This document shows, one piece after another, positions 49,495 through 63,642 of a DNA stretch of 64,000 bases; positions within the stretch are counted from its first letter, which is position 1; each line of letters opens with the position of its first letter. Source of the stretch: Cyanobacteria bacterium FACHB-63 (GTDB lineage: Bacteria; Cyanobacteriota; Cyanobacteriia; Leptolyngbyales; Leptolyngbyaceae). The position numbers and the translations under genes are program-made. The notes under the pieces are model-generated. The model was not told where the DNA came from. It did no database searches and worked only from the letters and a program-made list of their open reading frames with translations. The stretch covers positions 62,001 to 126,000 of the forward strand of contig JACJNX010000075.1 in the NCBI GenBank assembly GCA_014695255.1, in the 5' to 3' direction.

Positions 49495-50397
49495 ATGCAA
49501 AAGAAAAGGCAACGATCGAGATCCGTCAGACCCTCACACCCCATTCATGCATCTCAGCAAGTGGTGGTTTATGGTCCCGATAGCCAGATGCTCAATCCCC
49601 TCCGTCTATTTAGAGCCATGTGGTTCGATCTCTTAGGGTCACGATCTCTTGCATGGCAACTCATGCGGCGTGATATTAGTGCAAAGTATCGTCAATCTGC
49701 TCTCGGTCTATTCTGGGCATTCTTGCCCGCTGTGATTATGGCGGCTGGCTTTAGTCTTGCAAGAGGAAGCGGTGTGATTAATATCGGCAAAACAGATTTG
49801 CCTTACCCCGCTTATATTATGTTCAGCATGACGCTATGGCAAACCTTTGTTGAAGCATTAAATGCACCTGTGCAAGCGGTTGCAAGCGCGAAATCTATGC
49901 TTTGTCGCGTGAATTTCCCGCGTGAAGCATTAATTCTCGCAAAGCTCGGTGAAGTTGGCTTTAACTTTGGCATTAAGCTAATTTTTATTGCTGCGTTGTT
50001 CTTGTGGTTTCGCATTCCCGTGACCTGGACGGCAATTCTGGCTCCTGTTGCGTTGATCCATCTCGTTGCATTAGGCACATCTTTAGGCTTGTTACTGGCT
50101 CCGATCAGCGCTCTGTACCAGGATGTTTCGATGGCACTCACGCTGATCACAGGACTGTGGCTGTTTGTCACACCAGTCGTATATCCCATTCCTCAGACTG
50201 GCGCTTTTGCACAGATTGTGGCGCTCAATCCGGTGACTCCGCTCTTGGTCACAGTTCGAGAGTTAGCGACTACGGGGATTGTGTCGAATCCGATCGGATT
50301 CTGGGTTGCCAGTGCGATCGCGCTGGTTGGCTTACTGTTCGGCTGGATTTTTTATCGGTTAGCACTTCCGTTTGTTGTTGAGAGAGTTAGTTCTTGA
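49495..50397 (+). CDS. Wzm-type ABC-2 polysaccharide export permease, second pair
   Basis: A 300-residue permease with six hydrophobic segments after a 40-residue basic N-terminus (MQKKRQRSRSVRPSHPIHAS). Motifs match ABC-2 polysaccharide permeases: RRDISAKYRQSALGLFWAFLP and the C-terminal ALNPVTPLLVTVRELATTG. It is a paralogue of the permease at 38703 but clearly diverged. The ATPase gene begins five bases after the stop. It probably exports a second glycan distinct from that of the first pair. The ATG at 49495 lies 141 bases after the small Cys/His gene; a separate promoter is likely. Confidence 0.9.
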   Translation: MQKKRQRSRSVRPSHPIHASQQVVVYGPDSQMLNPLRLFRAMWFDLLGSRSLAWQLMRRDISAKYRQSALGLFWAFLPAVIMAAGFSLARGSGVINIGKTDLPYPAYIMFSMTLWQTFVEALNAPVQAVASAKSMLCRVNFPREALILAKLGEVGFNFGIKLIFIAALFLWFRIPVTWTAILAPVALIHLVALGTSLGLLLAPISALYQDVSMALTLITGLWLFVTPVVYPIPQTGAFAQIVALNPVTPLLVTVRELATTGIVSNPIGFWVASAIALVGLLFGWIFYRLALPFVVERVSS

Positions 50398-50402
50398 GAA
50401 TT

Positions 50403-51695
50403 ATGGCTGTCACTCATTCAATCGTTTCTGAATCGATCCCGTCGGCTTCGCAAGAGGTGATTCTCTCGGTCAATGGAGTCTCTAAAAAGTTCTGTCGAGA
50501 CTTGAAGCGATCGCTCTTTTATGGCATTCATGACATTGGCTTAGAATTAGCCGGTCGCCGCCGCTCCCGTACCTCATTGCGGTCTCGTGAATTCTGGGCA
50601 TTACACGATGTCAGCTTTGAGTTGCGGCGCGGAGAAGCACTCGGACTGGTCGGCAAAAACGGCAGCGGCAAGTCTACGCTGCTGCGGATTATTGCAGGTT
50701 TAATCCGACCCGATCAAGGACAGGTCGAGGTTCGCGGTCGCGTTGCTCCGTTGATTGCGCTTGGAGCCGGGTTTAATCCGATCTTGACAGGACGAGAAAA
50801 TATCTACGCCAATATGTCGATCTTAGGTATGAGCAAACCGCAGATCGATCGCGTGTTTGATCAAGTCCTAGAGTTTGCTGAAATTAATGATGCGATCGAT
50901 TCTCCGGTACAAAGCTATAGTTCGGGTATGGCAGCGCGGCTGGGATTTGCCTGCGCGATTCATACCGAACCTGATATTTTGCTAATCGATGAAGTGTTAG
51001 CGGTCGGAGATTTGAGATTTCGCGCCAAATGCTACCGCCGACTCTCAGAACTCCGCGATCGGGGAGTTGCGTTCGTCTTAGTTTCGCATAGTTCAAACTC
51101 GATTTTATCGAAATGCGAGACTGCGGTCTACTTGTCGAAAGGCAATCTGATCATGGCGGGTGATTCATTAGCAGTAACGCGACGCTATGAAAACGATTTG
51201 TTTTTAGAAGGCGCACCGCCTGCCACTGGAGAACTTCAACGTCCGCAGCGATCAACGCACGAAAGTTCTGGATTAGATATTACCGGAGTCTTTTTCCGCG
51301 ATCGCAATGCCGCTAAAATGACAACGCCAATCAGCGGAGAAAAGCTCGATCTTTGTATTCAAGCCGAAGCGCGGCATGCGATTCCTGAAACAAATATGGT
51401 TGTCTCCATTCGAGAGCGAGCCGGAGAAGGAGACAAAGTTTTAGTGCTGAGTACTCTACACGACAAAACTCCGATTCGTATCACGGCTGGAGCGAATGAG
51501 ATTCGAGTTGAATTTCCTTACCTTGGGCTAAAACCTGGCTCTTACTTGTTAGATTTACATCTCTATCAGGGAAACTACATTTTGCTTGATTCGATCAAGG
51601 AATTTAGCTTTGCCGTAGAAGGAACAGGCAGCATGAGCGAATGTTCATTTTATCAGCCTCGACGCTGGACTGCGGTTCAGACCGAGGCGAAATGA
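50403..51695 (+). CDS. Wzt-type ABC ATPase with C-terminal polysaccharide-binding domain, second pair
   Basis: A 430-residue ATPase. Walker A is GKNGSGKSTLLR (about 85), the family stretch LIALGAGFNPILTGRENIYAN follows (shown in part as GAGFNPILTGREN), the signature is YSSGMAARLGFACA, Walker B is ILLIDEVLAVGD and the H-loop is LVSHSSNS. Residues about 290-430 form a Wzt_C-like beta-sandwich with LDLCIQAEARHAIPETNMVV and LKPGSYLLDLHLYQGN. The start at ATG 50403 is preferred to a TTG at 50394 that overlaps the permease stop. Its C-terminal domain differs from that of the first pair, which agrees with a different exported glycan. Confidence 0.92.
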   Translation: MAVTHSIVSESIPSASQEVILSVNGVSKKFCRDLKRSLFYGIHDIGLELAGRRRSRTSLRSREFWALHDVSFELRRGEALGLVGKNGSGKSTLLRIIAGLIRPDQGQVEVRGRVAPLIALGAGFNPILTGRENIYANMSILGMSKPQIDRVFDQVLEFAEINDAIDSPVQSYSSGMAARLGFACAIHTEPDILLIDEVLAVGDLRFRAKCYRRLSELRDRGVAFVLVSHSSNSILSKCETAVYLSKGNLIMAGDSLAVTRRYENDLFLEGAPPATGELQRPQRSTHESSGLDITGVFFRDRNAAKMTTPISGEKLDLCIQAEARHAIPETNMVVSIRERAGEGDKVLVLSTLHDKTPIRITAGANEIRVEFPYLGLKPGSYLLDLHLYQGNYILLDSIKEFSFAVEGTGSMSECSFYQPRRWTAVQTEAK

Positions 51696-51741
51696 AGGTT
51701 CGATCGACAGATAGAAATTTGATGGTTGTTTGGAGGATGTG

Positions 51742-52572
51742 ATGAGATCGTTATTTGATGCGGTAGAAAAGCATGAAGTGTTTAACGAACCCTTTCCGCA
51801 TGTAGTGATTCGCGATGCGTTAGACGAAGAACTTTGTACGCAATTGATCGCTGAATTTCCGACTATTAATACTATTACTCAAAGTCCTCAGTTTGTTAGC
51901 AACGAGCGGTACAGCTACCCAGCCCGCGATGTGTTTGCGAATCCACAGATTAGCGACCTTTGGAAGTCTTTTATTCAGCTTCATACCTCCGATCGCTTTC
52001 TCAAGCAGTTCGGCACTTTGTTTGAAGATCACATCCGTCAGTATCATCCAGAGTTTGAGCAGGTCATCGGCGAGATTCGCGCACTTAAAGCAGGTGTGCG
52101 AAAAATTGATGACTTTTCCAGTGCTGATGTGTTGATGGATGCCCAAATTTGCATTAATGCGCCGGTCACTGAAGTCCCGAAGCCGATCAAGCAAGCTCAC
52201 ATTGATCGTCCGCAAGTTTTATTTGCTGGACTTTACTACTTGCGGCATCCAGACGATCGTTCAACCGGTGGGGATCTCGAAATTTACCGCTTCAAGTCCG
52301 GCAAACCCTACGGTTTTCAAGGTCAATTTATCGACGATCGCTATGTTGAACGGGTGAAGACGGTGAAATACGATCGCAATGTCTTAGTTCTTTTTCTCAA
52401 TTCGATTCATTCTTTACACGGTGTAACGGCTCGATCGATTACGAACTCTCCCCGCTGTTTTGTTAACTTAATCGGAGAAGTAAAGCAGCCTTTATTTAAC
52501 TATCGACTTCATGAAGAACAGACAAATTTAGTGAGTCAGTTTACACGGAAACTGCGGAGATTAGTACCCTAG
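51742..52572 (+). CDS. 2OG-Fe(II) oxygenase (prolyl-4-hydroxylase-like)
   Basis: A 276-residue soluble non-haem iron dioxygenase. The iron triad is visible as His153 and Asp155 in QAHIDRPQ and the distal His226 in SLHGVTAR; the Arg in the next strand (SPRCFVN or TAR) would bind 2-oxoglutarate. The N-terminus FPHVVIRDALDEELCTQLI is typical for such enzymes. The ATG at 51742 has GGAGG five bases upstream. Placed between an ABC glycan exporter and the lectin-hydrolase gene, it may hydroxylate a nucleotide-linked or lipid-linked sugar, but peptide or small-molecule substrates are equally compatible with the fold. Confidence 0.85.
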   Translation: MRSLFDAVEKHEVFNEPFPHVVIRDALDEELCTQLIAEFPTINTITQSPQFVSNERYSYPARDVFANPQISDLWKSFIQLHTSDRFLKQFGTLFEDHIRQYHPEFEQVIGEIRALKAGVRKIDDFSSADVLMDAQICINAPVTEVPKPIKQAHIDRPQVLFAGLYYLRHPDDRSTGGDLEIYRFKSGKPYGFQGQFIDDRYVERVKTVKYDRNVLVLFLNSIHSLHGVTARSITNSPRCFVNLIGEVKQPLFNYRLHEEQTNLVSQFTRKLRRLVP

Positions 52573-52740
52573 GAAAGGCACTAAGATTAATAGTGATTTG
52601 TCGTTCACGGTCTTGGTCGCTTGAGTAAAAGCAGTGGTTCAGCTTTCATTCTCGGAACAGATTGCTCAGATTTGAAGAAAACAGCATCAGGGTGGGTCAT
52701 CATCGCATCAAACTAAGGGCGTGCGTTCGTCTTAGCACCC

Positions 52741-52762
52741 TTAAACCCAATTTAAACCCAAT
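52741..52762 (+). repeat. Tandem 11-bp direct repeat upstream of the lectin-hydrolase gene
   Basis: TTAAACCCAAT occurs twice with no gap (52741-52751 and 52752-52762), 43-64 bases before the ATG at 52805. The exact 11-bp period places both copies on the same face of the helix, as in binding sites of OmpR/PhoB-type activators. Position relative to the start fits a promoter element. Confidence 0.5.
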
Positions 52763-52804: not shown

Positions 52805-54943
52805 ATGTTAATCAACTACAATACTTTCTCAGGCGCGACCGGACTCGCCCTAAATGGCAATGCGTCTTTAAGTGGTGGAGCTTTACAATTAACCCCGGAT
52901 GCCTCGCTGCAACGCGGTAGCGCTTTTTGGAATAAGCCTTTATCACTGAGTGCAAATTCATCGTTCTCTACAAATTTCCAACTTCAAATTACGGGTAGCC
53001 GAGGCACAAATGGTGCAGACGGAATGACCTTTATACTGCAAAATAGCAGCCAAGGCATCGCCGCTCTCGGCGGGGTGGGCGGACAACTCGGTTACGGAAC
53101 GATCGACAAAAGCCTAGCGATTAAATTTGATACTTGGGCAAACACAGGCGAAACGAGCCGTAACTATGTTGGGGTCGTTCTGAACGGGGCTTCGGTTGGC
53201 GGAGTGGTGGGAGCCGAAGCACCCATCGACCTCAATAGCAGCAAAGCTGTAAATGTTTGGATTGATTACGATGGGCAGACTGATAAGCTTGCCGTTTTTA
53301 TTGCAGGCGACACAGCAACCAGTAAGCCCACCAATCCGCTTTTTACCTACACAGTCGATCTGCTTAATCTGCTTGGTACTCAAACTTATGCAGGCTTCAG
53401 TGCAGGCACTGGAGGCGCGGCCAACGCACATCGCATTAATCGGTGGCAGCTAGATACTTCGCTTCCTACCGTACCCAACCCCACCCCTGGAACTTCGGGT
53501 TCGTTTAACTATAACGATTTCTCTACGCTCACTGGAATCAAAACAAACGGGAGTACCTTTCAATCCGGGAACGTCCTGCGATTAACCTCCGACCAACAGC
53601 TTCAAGCGGGAACTGCGTTTACAACAACCCCGATCGATATCTACGGTAATACTTCATTTAGTACAAACTTTAGGTTCCGATTCTCAGGCGCTCTCGGAAC
53701 TAATGGTGGCGATGGCATTACTTTCATGCTACAAAACAATAATGCAGGAGCGAATGCGATCGGCGTGGTAGGGGGTGGATTAGGCTATAACGGCATCACT
53801 GATAGCTTAGCAATCAAGTTTGATACTTGGAAAGGATCAGGAGAGCTGAGCAACAATTATGTTGCGGTATTGACTAACGGCGATGGAACTAAACCGTATG
53901 ACTGGACGGATCAAAACTACGTGACGTACCGCGCTCAAGCGCAAGCACCCTTCGATCTCAATGGGAGCGGTACCATCTTGAACGCTTGGGTTGACTACAA
54001 CGGAACTACGGACAATCTACAGGTCTATCTCTCAAATACCTCGACGAAGCCAACGACAGCCTTAATTAGTACGAAGATACAACTCTCAAATGTTGTAGGA
54101 TCACAAGCATTTGTCGGATTTAGCGGAGCAACGGGTGGAACTACCAGCATTCAAGATGTGTTGAACTGGAGTTTTTCGTCTTCGACTCCTGCTCCTCCTG
54201 CTCCTCAGCCTGGAGTCGCTCGAATTCTGGCGCTTGGAGACTCGATTACACTAGGCGTTACGGCGCGAACAGATGACAAAAATCGAACCGCGATTCCAGG
54301 TGGCTACCGTCGAGTGCTGTGGAATAAATTCGTCGATGCTGGGATTGCTGTCAATTTTGTCGGCAGTGAAACCGATGGAACTTCTACAAATCCAGCATAT
54401 CAATGGAAAAACGGAGGGGATAAAAACGATCAAGGCATGTCAGGCTGGAGAATCGAAAAACTCATTGCCAATGTGGAGAACTATCTCAAGCGAGAGAAGC
54501 CAGACATCATCACGCTGATCATCGGAACGAACAATCTCTTTACAGATACTTCGGGAGCGCAAATGCTCAGCAGGCTTAATACTCTGATTAATAAGATCAC
54601 CGCATTCTCACCGAATACGAAGCTGCTAGTGGGTTCGATCCCACCGGCTTATTCTGATATCGATCGATTCGCGACTCCTGAACGAAGTCAACAACAGATG
54701 CAAATGATCAGAGATTACAATAACGGCATACCCGGACTGGTCAACAATAATCGTGCAGCGGGTAAGAATGTCTACTTTGTCGATATGCGATCGCTAACGC
54801 TGTCTGATCTTGCGCCGCGCAACGATGATAATGGACTGCATCCTTCGATGGCGGGATACGACAAGATTGGTACGCTTTGGTACAATGCGCTGCTCGATCC
54901 GGGTGTCGTTGGAGTCGCTGGAAACACGCTCAAAACCGCGTAG
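52805..54943 (+). CDS. Double L-type lectin domain fused to SGNH/GDSL hydrolase
   Basis: A 712-residue protein with three modules. Two lectin-like beta-sandwiches of about 220 residues (1-220 and 237-465) both show the legume-lectin pattern GTNGADGMTFILQN or GTNGGDGITFMLQN, then SLAIKFDTW, and an AVNVWIDYDG or LNAWVDYNG strand; Asp and Asn of these motifs bind Ca and sugar in L-type lectins. A Pro-rich linker (about 466-475) leads to an SGNH hydrolase: ILALGDSITLG (block I Ser), TLIIGTNNLF (block III Asn) and NGLHPSMAGYD (block V Asp/His). No signal peptide is visible, so secretion by a non-Sec route is likely if it is extracellular. Predicted to bind and deacetylate a glycan. Confidence 0.87.
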   Translation: MLINYNTFSGATGLALNGNASLSGGALQLTPDASLQRGSAFWNKPLSLSANSSFSTNFQLQITGSRGTNGADGMTFILQNSSQGIAALGGVGGQLGYGTIDKSLAIKFDTWANTGETSRNYVGVVLNGASVGGVVGAEAPIDLNSSKAVNVWIDYDGQTDKLAVFIAGDTATSKPTNPLFTYTVDLLNLLGTQTYAGFSAGTGGAANAHRINRWQLDTSLPTVPNPTPGTSGSFNYNDFSTLTGIKTNGSTFQSGNVLRLTSDQQLQAGTAFTTTPIDIYGNTSFSTNFRFRFSGALGTNGGDGITFMLQNNNAGANAIGVVGGGLGYNGITDSLAIKFDTWKGSGELSNNYVAVLTNGDGTKPYDWTDQNYVTYRAQAQAPFDLNGSGTILNAWVDYNGTTDNLQVYLSNTSTKPTTALISTKIQLSNVVGSQAFVGFSGATGGTTSIQDVLNWSFSSSTPAPPAPQPGVARILALGDSITLGVTARTDDKNRTAIPGGYRRVLWNKFVDAGIAVNFVGSETDGTSTNPAYQWKNGGDKNDQGMSGWRIEKLIANVENYLKREKPDIITLIIGTNNLFTDTSGAQMLSRLNTLINKITAFSPNTKLLVGSIPPAYSDIDRFATPERSQQQMQMIRDYNNGIPGLVNNNRAAGKNVYFVDMRSLTLSDLAPRNDDNGLHPSMAGYDKIGTLWYNALLDPGVVGVAGNTLKTA

Positions 54944-54964: not shown

Positions 54965-54996
54965 CCCTCCAGAGATAAACAATATCTGGAGGGTTT
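54965..54996 (+). terminator. Intrinsic terminator after the lectin-hydrolase gene
   Basis: A perfect GC-rich 9-bp stem (CCCTCCAGA at 54965-54973, TCTGGAGGG at 54985-54993) with an 11-base loop, followed by TTT. It starts 21 bases after the stop codon at 54943. The T-run is short but the stem is strong. Confidence 0.65.
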
Positions 54997-55092: not shown

Positions 55093-56049
55093 ATGAAGAT
55101 ACCCCCGCTTAATTCGAGAGTCGAGACAGCGCAGCACACCTCTAACAGTTTTGTTCCTTATGTAATGGCACTGCGCCCGCATCAGTGGACAAAAAATCTC
55201 GTCGTGTTCGCGGCTCCGCTGTTTGCTTTCTCAATCCGATTCGAGACTGCTCTCGCTAGCTTGCTCGCGTTCGCGCTCTTTTGTGGTGTGTCGAGTAGCT
55301 TCTACTTGATTAATGACATCGCCGATGTGAAAGACGATCGCGCTCATCCCGTGAAGTGCAAACGCCCGATCGCATCGGGACTCGTTAAGATTCCGGTCGC
55401 GATCATCATGGCAGTCACGTTGCTCGGTAGTGCTTTGTTTTTTGGATTTTTGCACTCAACCGAGTTGGGTTTGACGATCGTTAGCTATGCTGCTTTGCAG
55501 CTAGCGTACAATCTTCGACTCAAGCGCATGGTGATCCTCGATGTGATTGCGATCGCGCTGGGGTTTGTGTTGCGTGCTTATGCAGGCGCAAACTCAACCC
55601 AGATCAGGTTATCGGTTTGGTTTGTGCTGTGTACAGCGATGCTCGCGTTGTTTTTAGGGATTGAGAAGCGTAAGGCAGAGTTGCGACTGTTACAGCGTAA
55701 AGGTGGAAAAACGCGATCGGTGTTACGCAAGTATTCGATATCGCTATTGACTCGAATGGAAAGTACAGTCGTGACCAGCACGGTTCTGACTTATGCCTTG
55801 TGGAGTGCAGGACCAACCTTAAGCGGGGCTTCAACCCCTTGGATGATCATAACTTTACCGTTTGTGCTGTATGGGGTATTTCGGTATCAACTCTTAAGCG
55901 AAGTGAACGATGACAATCCCGATCAGGTCAAAACTGAGCGACCCGATGAAGTCTTGCTGACTGATCTGCCAATTTTGCTCACCGTACTGGTTTGGGTTGC
56001 AACTATCTTTGTGATTTTACTGCTCAAACACAATGGACTGATTCAATGA
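55093..56049 (+). CDS. UbiA-family prenyltransferase, DPPR-synthase-like
   Basis: A 318-residue integral membrane protein with about eight hydrophobic helices. The first Asp-rich motif is INDIADVKDDRAHPVK (about residues 72-87) and the second lies in LVWDxxx-like MVILDVIAIALG with R and D nearby; LRPHQWTKNLVVFAAPLF at about 27-44 is typical of decaprenyl-phosphate phosphoribosyltransferase (UbiA of mycobacteria). In that pathway the enzyme joins phosphoribosyl pyrophosphate to a polyprenyl phosphate. Neighbours are a HAD phosphatase 26 bases downstream and an SMR-like protein, which would complete the route to polyprenyl-phospho-ribose. Other UbiA substrates (quinones, chlorophyll, haem) are less likely by motif and context. 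Confidence 0.85.
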   Translation: MKIPPLNSRVETAQHTSNSFVPYVMALRPHQWTKNLVVFAAPLFAFSIRFETALASLLAFALFCGVSSSFYLINDIADVKDDRAHPVKCKRPIASGLVKIPVAIIMAVTLLGSALFFGFLHSTELGLTIVSYAALQLAYNLRLKRMVILDVIAIALGFVLRAYAGANSTQIRLSVWFVLCTAMLALFLGIEKRKAELRLLQRKGGKTRSVLRKYSISLLTRMESTVVTSTVLTYALWSAGPTLSGASTPWMIITLPFVLYGVFRYQLLSEVNDDNPDQVKTERPDEVLLTDLPILLTVLVWVATIFVILLLKHNGLIQ

Positions 56050-61593: not shown

Positions 61594-63642
61594 ATGAGAA
61601 GCACTCCATCGATTGACAACAAAATTAATCAGTCCATCCCCAAATCCAATTACCGGCCTGAAATTAACGGTTTGAGAGCGATGGCGGTTGTTGCTGTCAT
61701 TATCAACCACTTCAACAAAAACCTGTTGCCCAGCGGTTATTTGGGTGTGGACATCTTCTTTCTGATTTCTGGGTTTGTGATTATGTCCTCGGTTTCAGGA
61801 CGTTCTAGCAGAAACTTGGGCAACTTTCTAGTGGAGTTTTACATTAGGCGAGTCAAACGATTAGCACCTGCATTGATTTTGTTTGTTCTCGCTCAGAGTT
61901 ATTTGATCTGTCTATTTGATCCGCTCCCACAGGTTTCGCTAACAACTGGGCTGAAATCCTTATTTGGTCTCTCTAATCTTTATCTGCTGGAGCAGTCTAC
62001 TGACTACTTCGCAGACTCCACAACGCTGAATGTCTTTACTCATACCTGGTCGTTGGGGGTAGAACAGCAATTCTATGTTCTGTTCCCGTTTTTGACATGG
62101 TTGACTGGTTTCAGTTGTCAAAGTGCCAAGGGAGCTAGAAATCTGTTTTGGGTAACAGTAGCACTATTGATTGCTTCTCTAATTGGGTTTATTTCTCTCT
62201 ACCCAAGCAATCAATCTGCGGCTTATTTTTCGATGCCCACCCGTCTATGGGAAATGAGTGCGGGTTGCTTGTTATTCTTGGGATTACAGCATTCCAATCG
62301 ATTTATTTGTGTTTTGAAAAATCTGCCGCCTGCAGCAGTGACGATAGCAATCATTGCTGTGCTGTTCACCCCTCTTCAATTTGCCTTGCTCTCTACTGTT
62401 GCAGTAGTCATGCTATCTGCAATCTTGATTGCTTGTTTACGTCCTGAAACCCCTAGCTATAACCTCTTTACCCGTCAGAGCATTGTTTACATCGGTCTGA
62501 TTTCTTATTCTTTGTATCTGTGGCATTGGGGTGTACTGTCACTAAGTCGTTGGACGATCGGCATTCACTGGTGGACGGTTCCCTTCCAGGTTGCCGTGAT
62601 ACTGCTGCTTGCGATCGTTTCGTATCGATATGTTGAAACACCTCTTCGTCAGGCTCAGTGGTCTACTGTGCGCTGGCAAAACCTTGCGTACGGGATAGCA
62701 GTATTGACCATTGCTGCGCTGGTGATTACGGGTTTATCGACGAAGCTTTACAGCAAGTTATTTTTGGATAAGCCAGCCTTTGCATCAAGAATAGCGGCTA
62801 TTTCTCCACGAAATGCCTCATGGAATGAAGCAGCTTGTACTACTGATAGAGCATCATCTCGTGCCATTGGAGTTAACTTTGATCAATGCAATATTTTAGA
62901 ATCAGGGCGATCGCAACTTGGTAAAAAGCATTTATTTTGGTATGGTGACTCCTATGCTGGGCAACTCTCACTCGTCCTCAGCGTCATCTCTAATGAGGCA
63001 CAACTCCCGATTAACCTATTTACTGCCCTTGGTTGTCCAGCGTCTCAATTTGCGTCTACTGCTGGAGAGACAGAAAAGGGGTATTGTTCAGGGGTGTTTA
63101 GAAAATATCTTGCATACTTTTTAAGGAAGAGCAAGGCAGGGGATGTGCTCGTTTTGAATAACGCGTTCCACTATTGGAAACCAGAAGATTTCTTGGTCGA
63201 TCCAGAGGGTGGTTGGAACTTTCGGGATGGAACAACGACTTTCAAGCGTTATGTTCAAGAAATTACTCAGCTCAGTGATGAACTTAAGCAGAAGGGGCGC
63301 AGGCTAGCTTTAGTTTCAGACATTCCAGTACTTTACAGAAATCCCAGTATTTGCTCATACTGGTTTGCACAAATAAATAACGAGTGTACGTCAGAAGAGC
63401 TAATCAACATCAAAGCAAATGAATATAGGCGAAGTGTTTCAAACACAATCCAAAGTAATCATCACTTCAATCAGAAGGGGGGATTTTTAGATATTTACAC
63501 ACCAATTAGAGGTCTACTTTCATACGCGCCAGATAACTACACTGAAATCTACAGAGATAAGGCACACTTGAGTAAAACAGGTGCACTTCGCCTAAAAAAC
63601 AGCATTCTTGCTTTCCTTCGTCAAAACCAGCTATTGAGCTAG
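61594..63642 (+). CDS. Acyltransferase 3 (OafA/YrhL-type) with SGNH domain
   Basis: A 682-residue membrane O-acyltransferase that probably acetylates a surface glycan at the periplasmic face. The N-terminal 360 residues hold about ten helices and the family motifs YRPEINGLRAMAVVAVIINH (catalytic His at about 40), YLGVDIFFLISGFVI and the RRVKRLAPAL basic stretch. The C-terminal part from about 420 is an SGNH-like domain: LFWYGDSYAGQLSLVL (block I Ser), then LNNAFHYW and the terminal DKAHLSKTGALRL (block V Asp/His). In such fusions the membrane part passes an acyl group to the SGNH domain, which modifies the sugar. It is flanked on both sides by the 21-bp element. Confidence 0.92.
   Translation: MRSTPSIDNKINQSIPKSNYRPEINGLRAMAVVAVIINHFNKNLLPSGYLGVDIFFLISGFVIMSSVSGRSSRNLGNFLVEFYIRRVKRLAPALILFVLAQSYLICLFDPLPQVSLTTGLKSLFGLSNLYLLEQSTDYFADSTTLNVFTHTWSLGVEQQFYVLFPFLTWLTGFSCQSAKGARNLFWVTVALLIASLIGFISLYPSNQSAAYFSMPTRLWEMSAGCLLFLGLQHSNRFICVLKNLPPAAVTIAIIAVLFTPLQFALLSTVAVVMLSAILIACLRPETPSYNLFTRQSIVYIGLISYSLYLWHWGVLSLSRWTIGIHWWTVPFQVAVILLLAIVSYRYVETPLRQAQWSTVRWQNLAYGIAVLTIAALVITGLSTKLYSKLFLDKPAFASRIAAISPRNASWNEAACTTDRASSRAIGVNFDQCNILESGRSQLGKKHLFWYGDSYAGQLSLVLSVISNEAQLPINLFTALGCPASQFASTAGETEKGYCSGVFRKYLAYFLRKSKAGDVLVLNNAFHYWKPEDFLVDPEGGWNFRDGTTTFKRYVQEITQLSDELKQKGRRLALVSDIPVLYRNPSICSYWFAQINNECTSEELINIKANEYRRSVSNTIQSNHHFNQKGGFLDIYTPIRGLLSYAPDNYTEIYRDKAHLSKTGALRLKNSILAFLRQNQLLS

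Follow-up and report, generated by a model that had tools for sequence, protein, structure and literature searches.

A cyanobacterial protein with two L-type lectin domains and a CE3-like SGNH domain, and its kinship with RTX esterases

The closest published analogue of the protein described here that we met in open-licence full texts is BcsZ (576 aa) from the bcsII operon of Komagataeibacter xylinus, which is described, in the portion of the source consulted, as a lectin-like fold followed by a C-terminal SGNH domain, encoded among polysaccharide genes together with an acyltransferase (PMC9318390). The protein analysed here has the same order of parts and lies in a comparable cluster, and the lectin/SGNH build thus has published precedent. 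The likeness is one of described build, and BcsZ differs in having one lectin-like stretch, in belonging to a cellulose operon and in having its catalytic Asp in the usual place (Asp550, His553; PMC9318390, same portion). Among solved structures, the hydrolase is closest in sequence to two CE3 enzymes (CtCes3-1, PDB 2vpt; TcAE206, PDB 5b5s), with which it shares an SGNH/GDSL_2 domain and the signature residues Ser, Asn and His. In CE3 the block V Asp stands three residues before the His, whereas in our protein it stands four before; the two lectin domains and the glycan-biosynthesis setting also set the protein, whose esterase activity is predicted from sequence, apart from CE3.

Other described systems bear on export. 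RTX proteins carry a secretion signal in their last ~60 residues, and RTX lipases are described as cysteine-free (both from part of PMC3034196). Cyanobacterial RTX proteins, for example L147 11130–14327 of genome G220 and L049 9033–10967 of genome G002, have an SGNH domain homologous to ours and no Sec signal by eye; they carry repeats before and after this domain plus a C-terminal tail motif, all of which our protein is without. HesF of Anabaena sp. PCC 7120 is described in an excerpt of PMC4390845 as an exoprotein without a recognised signal that needs the TolC-like HgdD; as a cyanobacterial exoprotein of this sort it is a precedent for export alone. The architecture, which a first, sequence-only reading of this DNA had called unusual, is so only in part, since lectin-SGNH proteins with RTX repeats occur in another cyanobacterium and Komagataeibacter is described as having a lectin-like/SGNH fusion (PMC9318390, in part). 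The protein is an RTX-free member of a cyanobacterial SGNH protein class rather than a one-off fusion.

The reading that we favour, at a probability of about 45%, is that of an exported carbohydrate esterase that edits the cell's own acylated glycan and descends from RTX proteins with loss of their tail. The esterase would leave the cell by some route, its two N-terminal L-type lectin domains would hold it on the polysaccharide of the surrounding ABC-transporter cluster, and its CE3-like SGNH domain would remove O-acetyl or other small acyl groups, namely those added by the cluster's own O-acyltransferase. Its ancestor would be an RTX esterase belonging to the type I secretion class, the genus having lost both the RTX blocks and the C-terminal secretion tail. 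That a lectin-carrying esterase is tied to a capsule/EPS-type cluster of a cyanobacterium, with O-acyltransferases nearby, suggests that the cell edits the acylation of its own matrix. Related genomes that hold this enzyme either with an RTX secretion module or without it would amount to a natural experiment, by which the exit route of signal-less cyanobacterial exoproteins becomes directly testable.

Domain build and catalytic residues

The gene lies in the window, by which we mean the whole stretch of 64,000 nucleotides that was analysed, from a genome of 7.23 Mb (G000). The gene and the parts of its product are as follows.

52805–54943, + strand: lectin-lectin-SGNH gene (712 aa, no cysteine; open reading frame, coordinates and ATG all checked)
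52805–53470, + strand: L-type lectin domain 1, residues 1–222, starting at the first residue of the protein (Pfam, model and PDB matches)
53492–54187, + strand: L-type lectin domain 2, residues ~230–461 (Pfam and sequence comparison only)
54188–54211, + strand: Pro-rich linker from lectin domain 2 to the SGNH domain
54212–54895, + strand: SGNH/GDSL hydrolase domain, CE3-like (the Pfam stretch is residues 476–686)
54242–54244, + strand: Ser480, expected nucleophile, in block I GDSIT (signature alignment)
54530–54532, + strand: Asn576, expected oxyanion residue, in block III GTNN (signature alignment)
54827–54841, + strand: block V DNGLH with His679 and Asp675, the Asp four residues before the His (usually three)
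54896–54940, + strand: C-terminal tail of 15 residues, ending at GNTL plus three (domain end taken from a low-confidence model)

Pfam gives the order lectin, lectin, SGNH hydrolase, which bears out the composition proposed in the sequence-only reading; an NCBIfam search of the 712-aa protein returned no match. PF00139 matches in two stretches (E 1.8e-74) and PF18483 also matches (2.8e-50); these two PF00139 stretches are the only ones in the whole genome, and the two domains are 46% identical to each other. Among solved structures the best sequence matches are 2vpt for the hydrolase part and 7elv for a lectin domain. A full-length model built from three sequences had a mean pLDDT of 41.8. Domain 1, modelled from nine natural lectin sequences, reached pLDDT 85.7 and pTM 0.88, and matched legume lectins with a best Foldseek E of 1.9e-17. 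Its superposition on the pea-type lectin 5t7p (VIA-align Z 27.8 over 205 residues) upholds by structure the lectin-likeness of this domain, and its fold is shared with pea lectin 2bqp (Z 27.4) and with 7elv from Methanocaldococcus jannaschii (Foldseek E 5.9e-16).

Domain 1 keeps D72, D109 and N113. Metal-binding L-type lectins have a Glu at the metal site, whereas both domains of the window protein have Lys there (K107 and K338), and domain 2 also has Gly (G344) for the loop Asn. Given these replacements, sugar binding by the lectin domains is not assured, a point against the exported-esterase reading. Other L-type lectin open reading frames were seen in genomes of the same family (L050, L051, L052, L053 and L058), in several of which the lectin lies close to the N-terminus or follows an N-terminal stretch of another kind, with no signal peptide by eye.

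The hydrolase domain matches PF13472 (GDSL_2) at E 7.1e-17, with 62.9 bits against a cut-off of 32.9, over residues 476–686. All five congeneric proteins retain the signature Ser, Asn and His. All five also have the block V Asp at His-4 (DNGLH in four, DSGVH in one) and lack the usual DxxH spacing; this displacement by one residue counts against the exported-esterase reading. The block V His of the two lectin-lectin proteins of G220 has no Asp within four residues. Taken at face value, the altered block V in the genus and the missing Asp in G220 would fit a protein in which the esterase has degenerated and which now acts mainly as a lectin, with a structural or adhesive role in the matrix. We regard this as quite improbable. 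The three signature residues are retained 5/5, CE2 esterases are described in part of PMC9487903 as making do with a Ser-His dyad without that Asp, and the same DNGLH spacing recurs in the RTX relatives L152 and L165. In addition, dN/dS is ~0.1 across the gene: the window copy gave 0.115 against G006, 0.111 against G001, 0.096 against G003 and 0.141 against G005, the last two ratios being rough because dS exceeds 2. The gene thus stays under purifying selection.

Glycan-export neighbourhood and O-acyltransferase genes

The exported-esterase reading ties the enzyme to the cluster in which its gene stands, whose relevant members are listed here.

49495–50397, + strand: ABC-2 permease, Wzm-like (PF01061)
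50394–51695, + strand: ABC ATPase (PF00005) with a Wzt_C-like C-terminal domain (Wzt_C at 28.9 bits, just under the cut-off of 30.4)
51730–52572, + strand: 2OG-Fe(II)-oxygenase-like protein (sub-threshold, 21.9 versus 27 bits)
55093–56049, + strand: UbiA-family protein, decaprenyl-phosphate phosphoribosyltransferase-like (NCBIfam NF008978 above cut-off), a conserved downstream neighbour
61594–63642, + strand: fusion of acyltransferase-3 (AT3) and SGNH domains, the probable O-acyltransferase of the cluster

The placement of the gene after an ABC exporter and an oxygenase, claimed at first from the letters, was recovered by Pfam for the permease and the ATPase, with the oxygenase match falling below its cut-off. 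G006 and G001 share with the window the gene order permease, ATPase, oxygenase-like, lectin-SGNH, UbiA, HAD. The ABC exporter pair adjoins the esterase in all three genomes whose contigs reach upstream (G000, G006 and G001), and in G003 the downstream neighbourhood is kept as far as the contig end. Because the gene keeps its place in a biosynthesis cluster, a competitor's glycan, the other target that had been suggested and one for which no indication emerged, was set aside.

The UbiA-family gene suggests a polyprenyl-linked pentose donor in the cluster. About 8–10 kb to the right of the window there are kdsB-, kdsA- and kdsC-like genes (L138 7785–10271), and the product of the cluster may be a KDO-containing glycan. 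Group 2 capsules contain KDO. Within this ABC-exporter cluster, 45692–46864 matches the alpha-2,8-polysialyltransferase family (PF07388, 4.9e-14).

An O-acyltransferase gene stands in or near the cluster in four of the five esterase genomes, the contig of G003 ending too early to tell. The AT3-SGNH fusion was found in two of the eight genus genomes, G000 and G001 (94%), with a weak partial match in G005, while G006 has a stand-alone AT3 ~10 kb downstream. Between its esterase and UbiA genes, G005 has, at L048 12480–14924, an MBOAT gene and a small gene, SGNH-like by eye with no Pfam match, which together resemble an AlgI/AlgJ pair by eye. In a related cluster of G002, 5 kb separate an MBOAT gene from the gene for a PA14-RTX-SGNH-RTX esterase. 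Since an MBOAT gene occurs somewhere in all eight genus genomes, the presence of an acyltransferase is not special as such. The syntenic cluster of G007 has exporter genes and no esterase, which weighs against the exported-esterase reading; in the 34 kb covered there, phmmer searches with five AT3, MBOAT and AlgJ-like queries gave no homologue.

Neighbours of this kind raise the question of whether the SGNH domain instead helps to add acyl groups, working together with the membrane O-acyltransferase of the cluster in the manner of PatB and AlgX/AlgJ and of the proposed BcsX/BcsZ and WssF. SGNH partners are described as working with MBOAT and AT3 proteins (PMC9558356, in part), in G005 the esterase gene stands right next to an MBOAT gene, and the lectin-like/SGNH protein of Komagataeibacter belongs to an operon thought, in the portion of PMC9318390 consulted, to acylate cellulose, a precedent that makes this role a serious rival. 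We nevertheless consider an acyl-adding role rather unlikely: among solved structures a CE3 acetylesterase comes closest, a separate SGNH-like gene (by eye, no Pfam match) already follows the MBOAT gene in G005, and the AT3 protein of the window carries an SGNH domain of its own.

Kinship with RTX esterases and location of the protein

A search for the full-length protein in 58 genomes, eight of them from the genus, found it in four of those eight: the window genome G000, G006 (89% identical), G001 (85%) and G003 (73%). G005 has a fifth copy, 54% identical and cut by a contig end, and orthologues occur in Phormidium tanganyikae FI6-MK23 (84%, best segment) and Pseudanabaenaceae cyanobacterium LEGE 13415 (72%). 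Thirty-five plasmid records had a match to the query, none of them covering >80% of it. For the SGNH domain, 388 genomes of the class gave 71 matches in 50 genomes at E ≤1e-15, of which 23 have open frames no longer than 325 aa and so consist of little more than the SGNH domain. A first comparison took 36 of the 71, picked by score, neighbourhood and available stretches, a choice that favours multi-domain proteins; L041 and L042 (duplicates of G001 and G003) and L062 (SGNH match <50 bits) were left out. A second tree added 11 matches, 10 of them short frames, bringing the number compared to 47 of 71.

At least one RTX motif is present in 26 of the 36 proteins compared first, and in 26 of the 47 of the wider set. 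The motif-free proteins among the 36 are varied. L154 has no RTX motif by pattern, yet its C-terminus looks secretion-like by eye; L057 and L161 show a Sec-like stretch ahead of the SGNH domain by eye; and L151 runs off its contig. The remainder are the five genus proteins and L061, which belongs to the same family, so that RTX-free members without a visible signal extend beyond the genus. None of the five genus proteins contains a GGxGxD motif of the RTX nonapeptide repeats (the G005 copy being cut N-terminally by its contig end), and none has the C-terminal secretion tail motif, which 21 of the 36 SGNH proteins carry. In many relatives the SGNH domain continues into a DTL-x-S-IENV-x-GS stretch and then into RTX repeats, whereas the genus proteins end, at this very point, 2 to 14 residues beyond GNTL. 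In G220, from another family, two lectin-lectin-SGNH proteins have their SGNH domain flanked on both sides by RTX repeats and carry the tail motif; a third protein has one lectin. In the L147 11130–14327 protein of this genome, RTX repeats occupy the position of our Pro-rich linker.

In the tree of 36 SGNH domains the five genus proteins group together (support 100/100), next to three of the four G220 proteins (89/75) and inside RTX-bearing branches (85/79 and 80/91). In the tree of 47 they fall in a 12-row clade with seven RTX proteins (SH-aLRT 96), the exact sister being unsettled, and seven of the ten short frames group elsewhere; both roots are midpoints only. Judged from these domain sequences, the genus proteins share descent with the RTX esterases, and because they nest among RTX proteins, the RTX blocks and secretion tail were probably lost in the genus rather than originally absent. 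The RTX motif is not a stable trait of the family, with eight changes on the tree of 47; this, like the 23 short frames, tells against the exported-esterase reading.

The start of the protein is well defined. An in-frame stop lies 3–4 codons before the ATG in all four full-length orthologues (G000, G006, G001 and G003), which rules out an upstream start that would add a signal peptide, and inspection of residues 1–20 found no basic residue and no strongly hydrophobic run. Two further claims of the first reading, that the protein has no Sec signal and that its first codons already belong to the lectin fold, therefore hold, lectin domain 1 beginning at the protein start. At the other end, the last ~60 residues fall mostly inside the SGNH domain. 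As for type I secretion, the host genome has three HlyD-family proteins above cut-off, one of whose genes adjoins that of an HlyB-like ATPase (615.8 bits, below the family cut-off of 725.6); the RTX repeat family gave 12 matches in it.

That no known export signal was found in the protein is a point against the exported-esterase reading and one in favour of a cytoplasmic enzyme which, without the RTX tail, would stay inside and trim or proofread the glycan before Wzm/Wzt-like export. The ABC exporter pair adjoining the gene in 3/3 genomes that reach that far (G000, G006 and G001) is consistent with this, as is the description, in an excerpt of PMC4390846, of ABC-pathway glycan as being finished inside the cell. 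By contrast, the description of AT3-SGNH enzymes places their action on the extracytoplasmic side (PMC9558356, in part), which would leave little acyl to remove inside, and the composition of the protein looks extracellular. Its Ser+Thr+Asn+Gly content of 39.5% is the highest among the window open reading frames tabulated, and cysteine, absent from all five genus proteins, occurs in 0 of 361 variable columns of the esterase versus 33 of 1048 in eight neighbour genes, aligned over three to five genomes each (Fisher P 7e-5), or 18 of 588 in the five neighbours judged soluble (P 3e-4). On this balance we hold a cytoplasmic location to be unlikely.

The absence of cysteine hints at a location outside the cytosol, and it is from this absence that we infer continued export. 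It is a hint only, because alignment columns are not independent events and because all 36 SGNH domains are without cysteine, so that the ancestor was probably cysteine-free; the cysteine count may mirror ancestry more than present location. RTX-esterase kinship, the lack of cysteine and the O-acyltransferase genes in or near the cluster together make an own-glycan deacetylase the best reading. The secreted deacetylase first suggested from the sequence thus survives, by way of these indirect indications. It is doubtful, though conceivable, that RTX repeats and type I tail were shed in one genus while export persisted by a second route reading neither signal; such a route would perhaps be guided by the lectin domains and their bound glycan.

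Flanking DNA and regulation

Two short elements flank the gene.

52741–52762, + strand: 11-bp unit, twice in tandem (duplication confirmed in the window)
54965–54993, + strand: 3' hairpin, a possible terminator with a weak T tract (a 66-nt stretch folds at -24.9 kcal/mol)

The sequence-only reading had seen in these a tandem repeat of the gene's own and a clear terminator, and had taken the gene to be probably regulated alone. The repeat exists, but it is duplicated in one of the four genomes aligned and not in G006, G001 or G003; it was accordingly rejected as a regulatory element and is probably not regulatory. A promoter scan gave five sites versus 3.5 expected and is hence uninformative. 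The hairpin is likewise present, but its T run is short, a similar one was seen by eye in one of the three other genomes aligned, and it is not among the seven sites (3.1 expected) of a terminator scan. Separate regulation draws no support from the repeat and is possible from the intergenic gaps of 232 bp and 149 bp that flank the esterase gene. A stretch at 52660–52693, ~110–145 bp ahead of the ATG, whose conservation seems to extend to the divergent G003, is a better candidate regulatory element than the 11-bp repeat.
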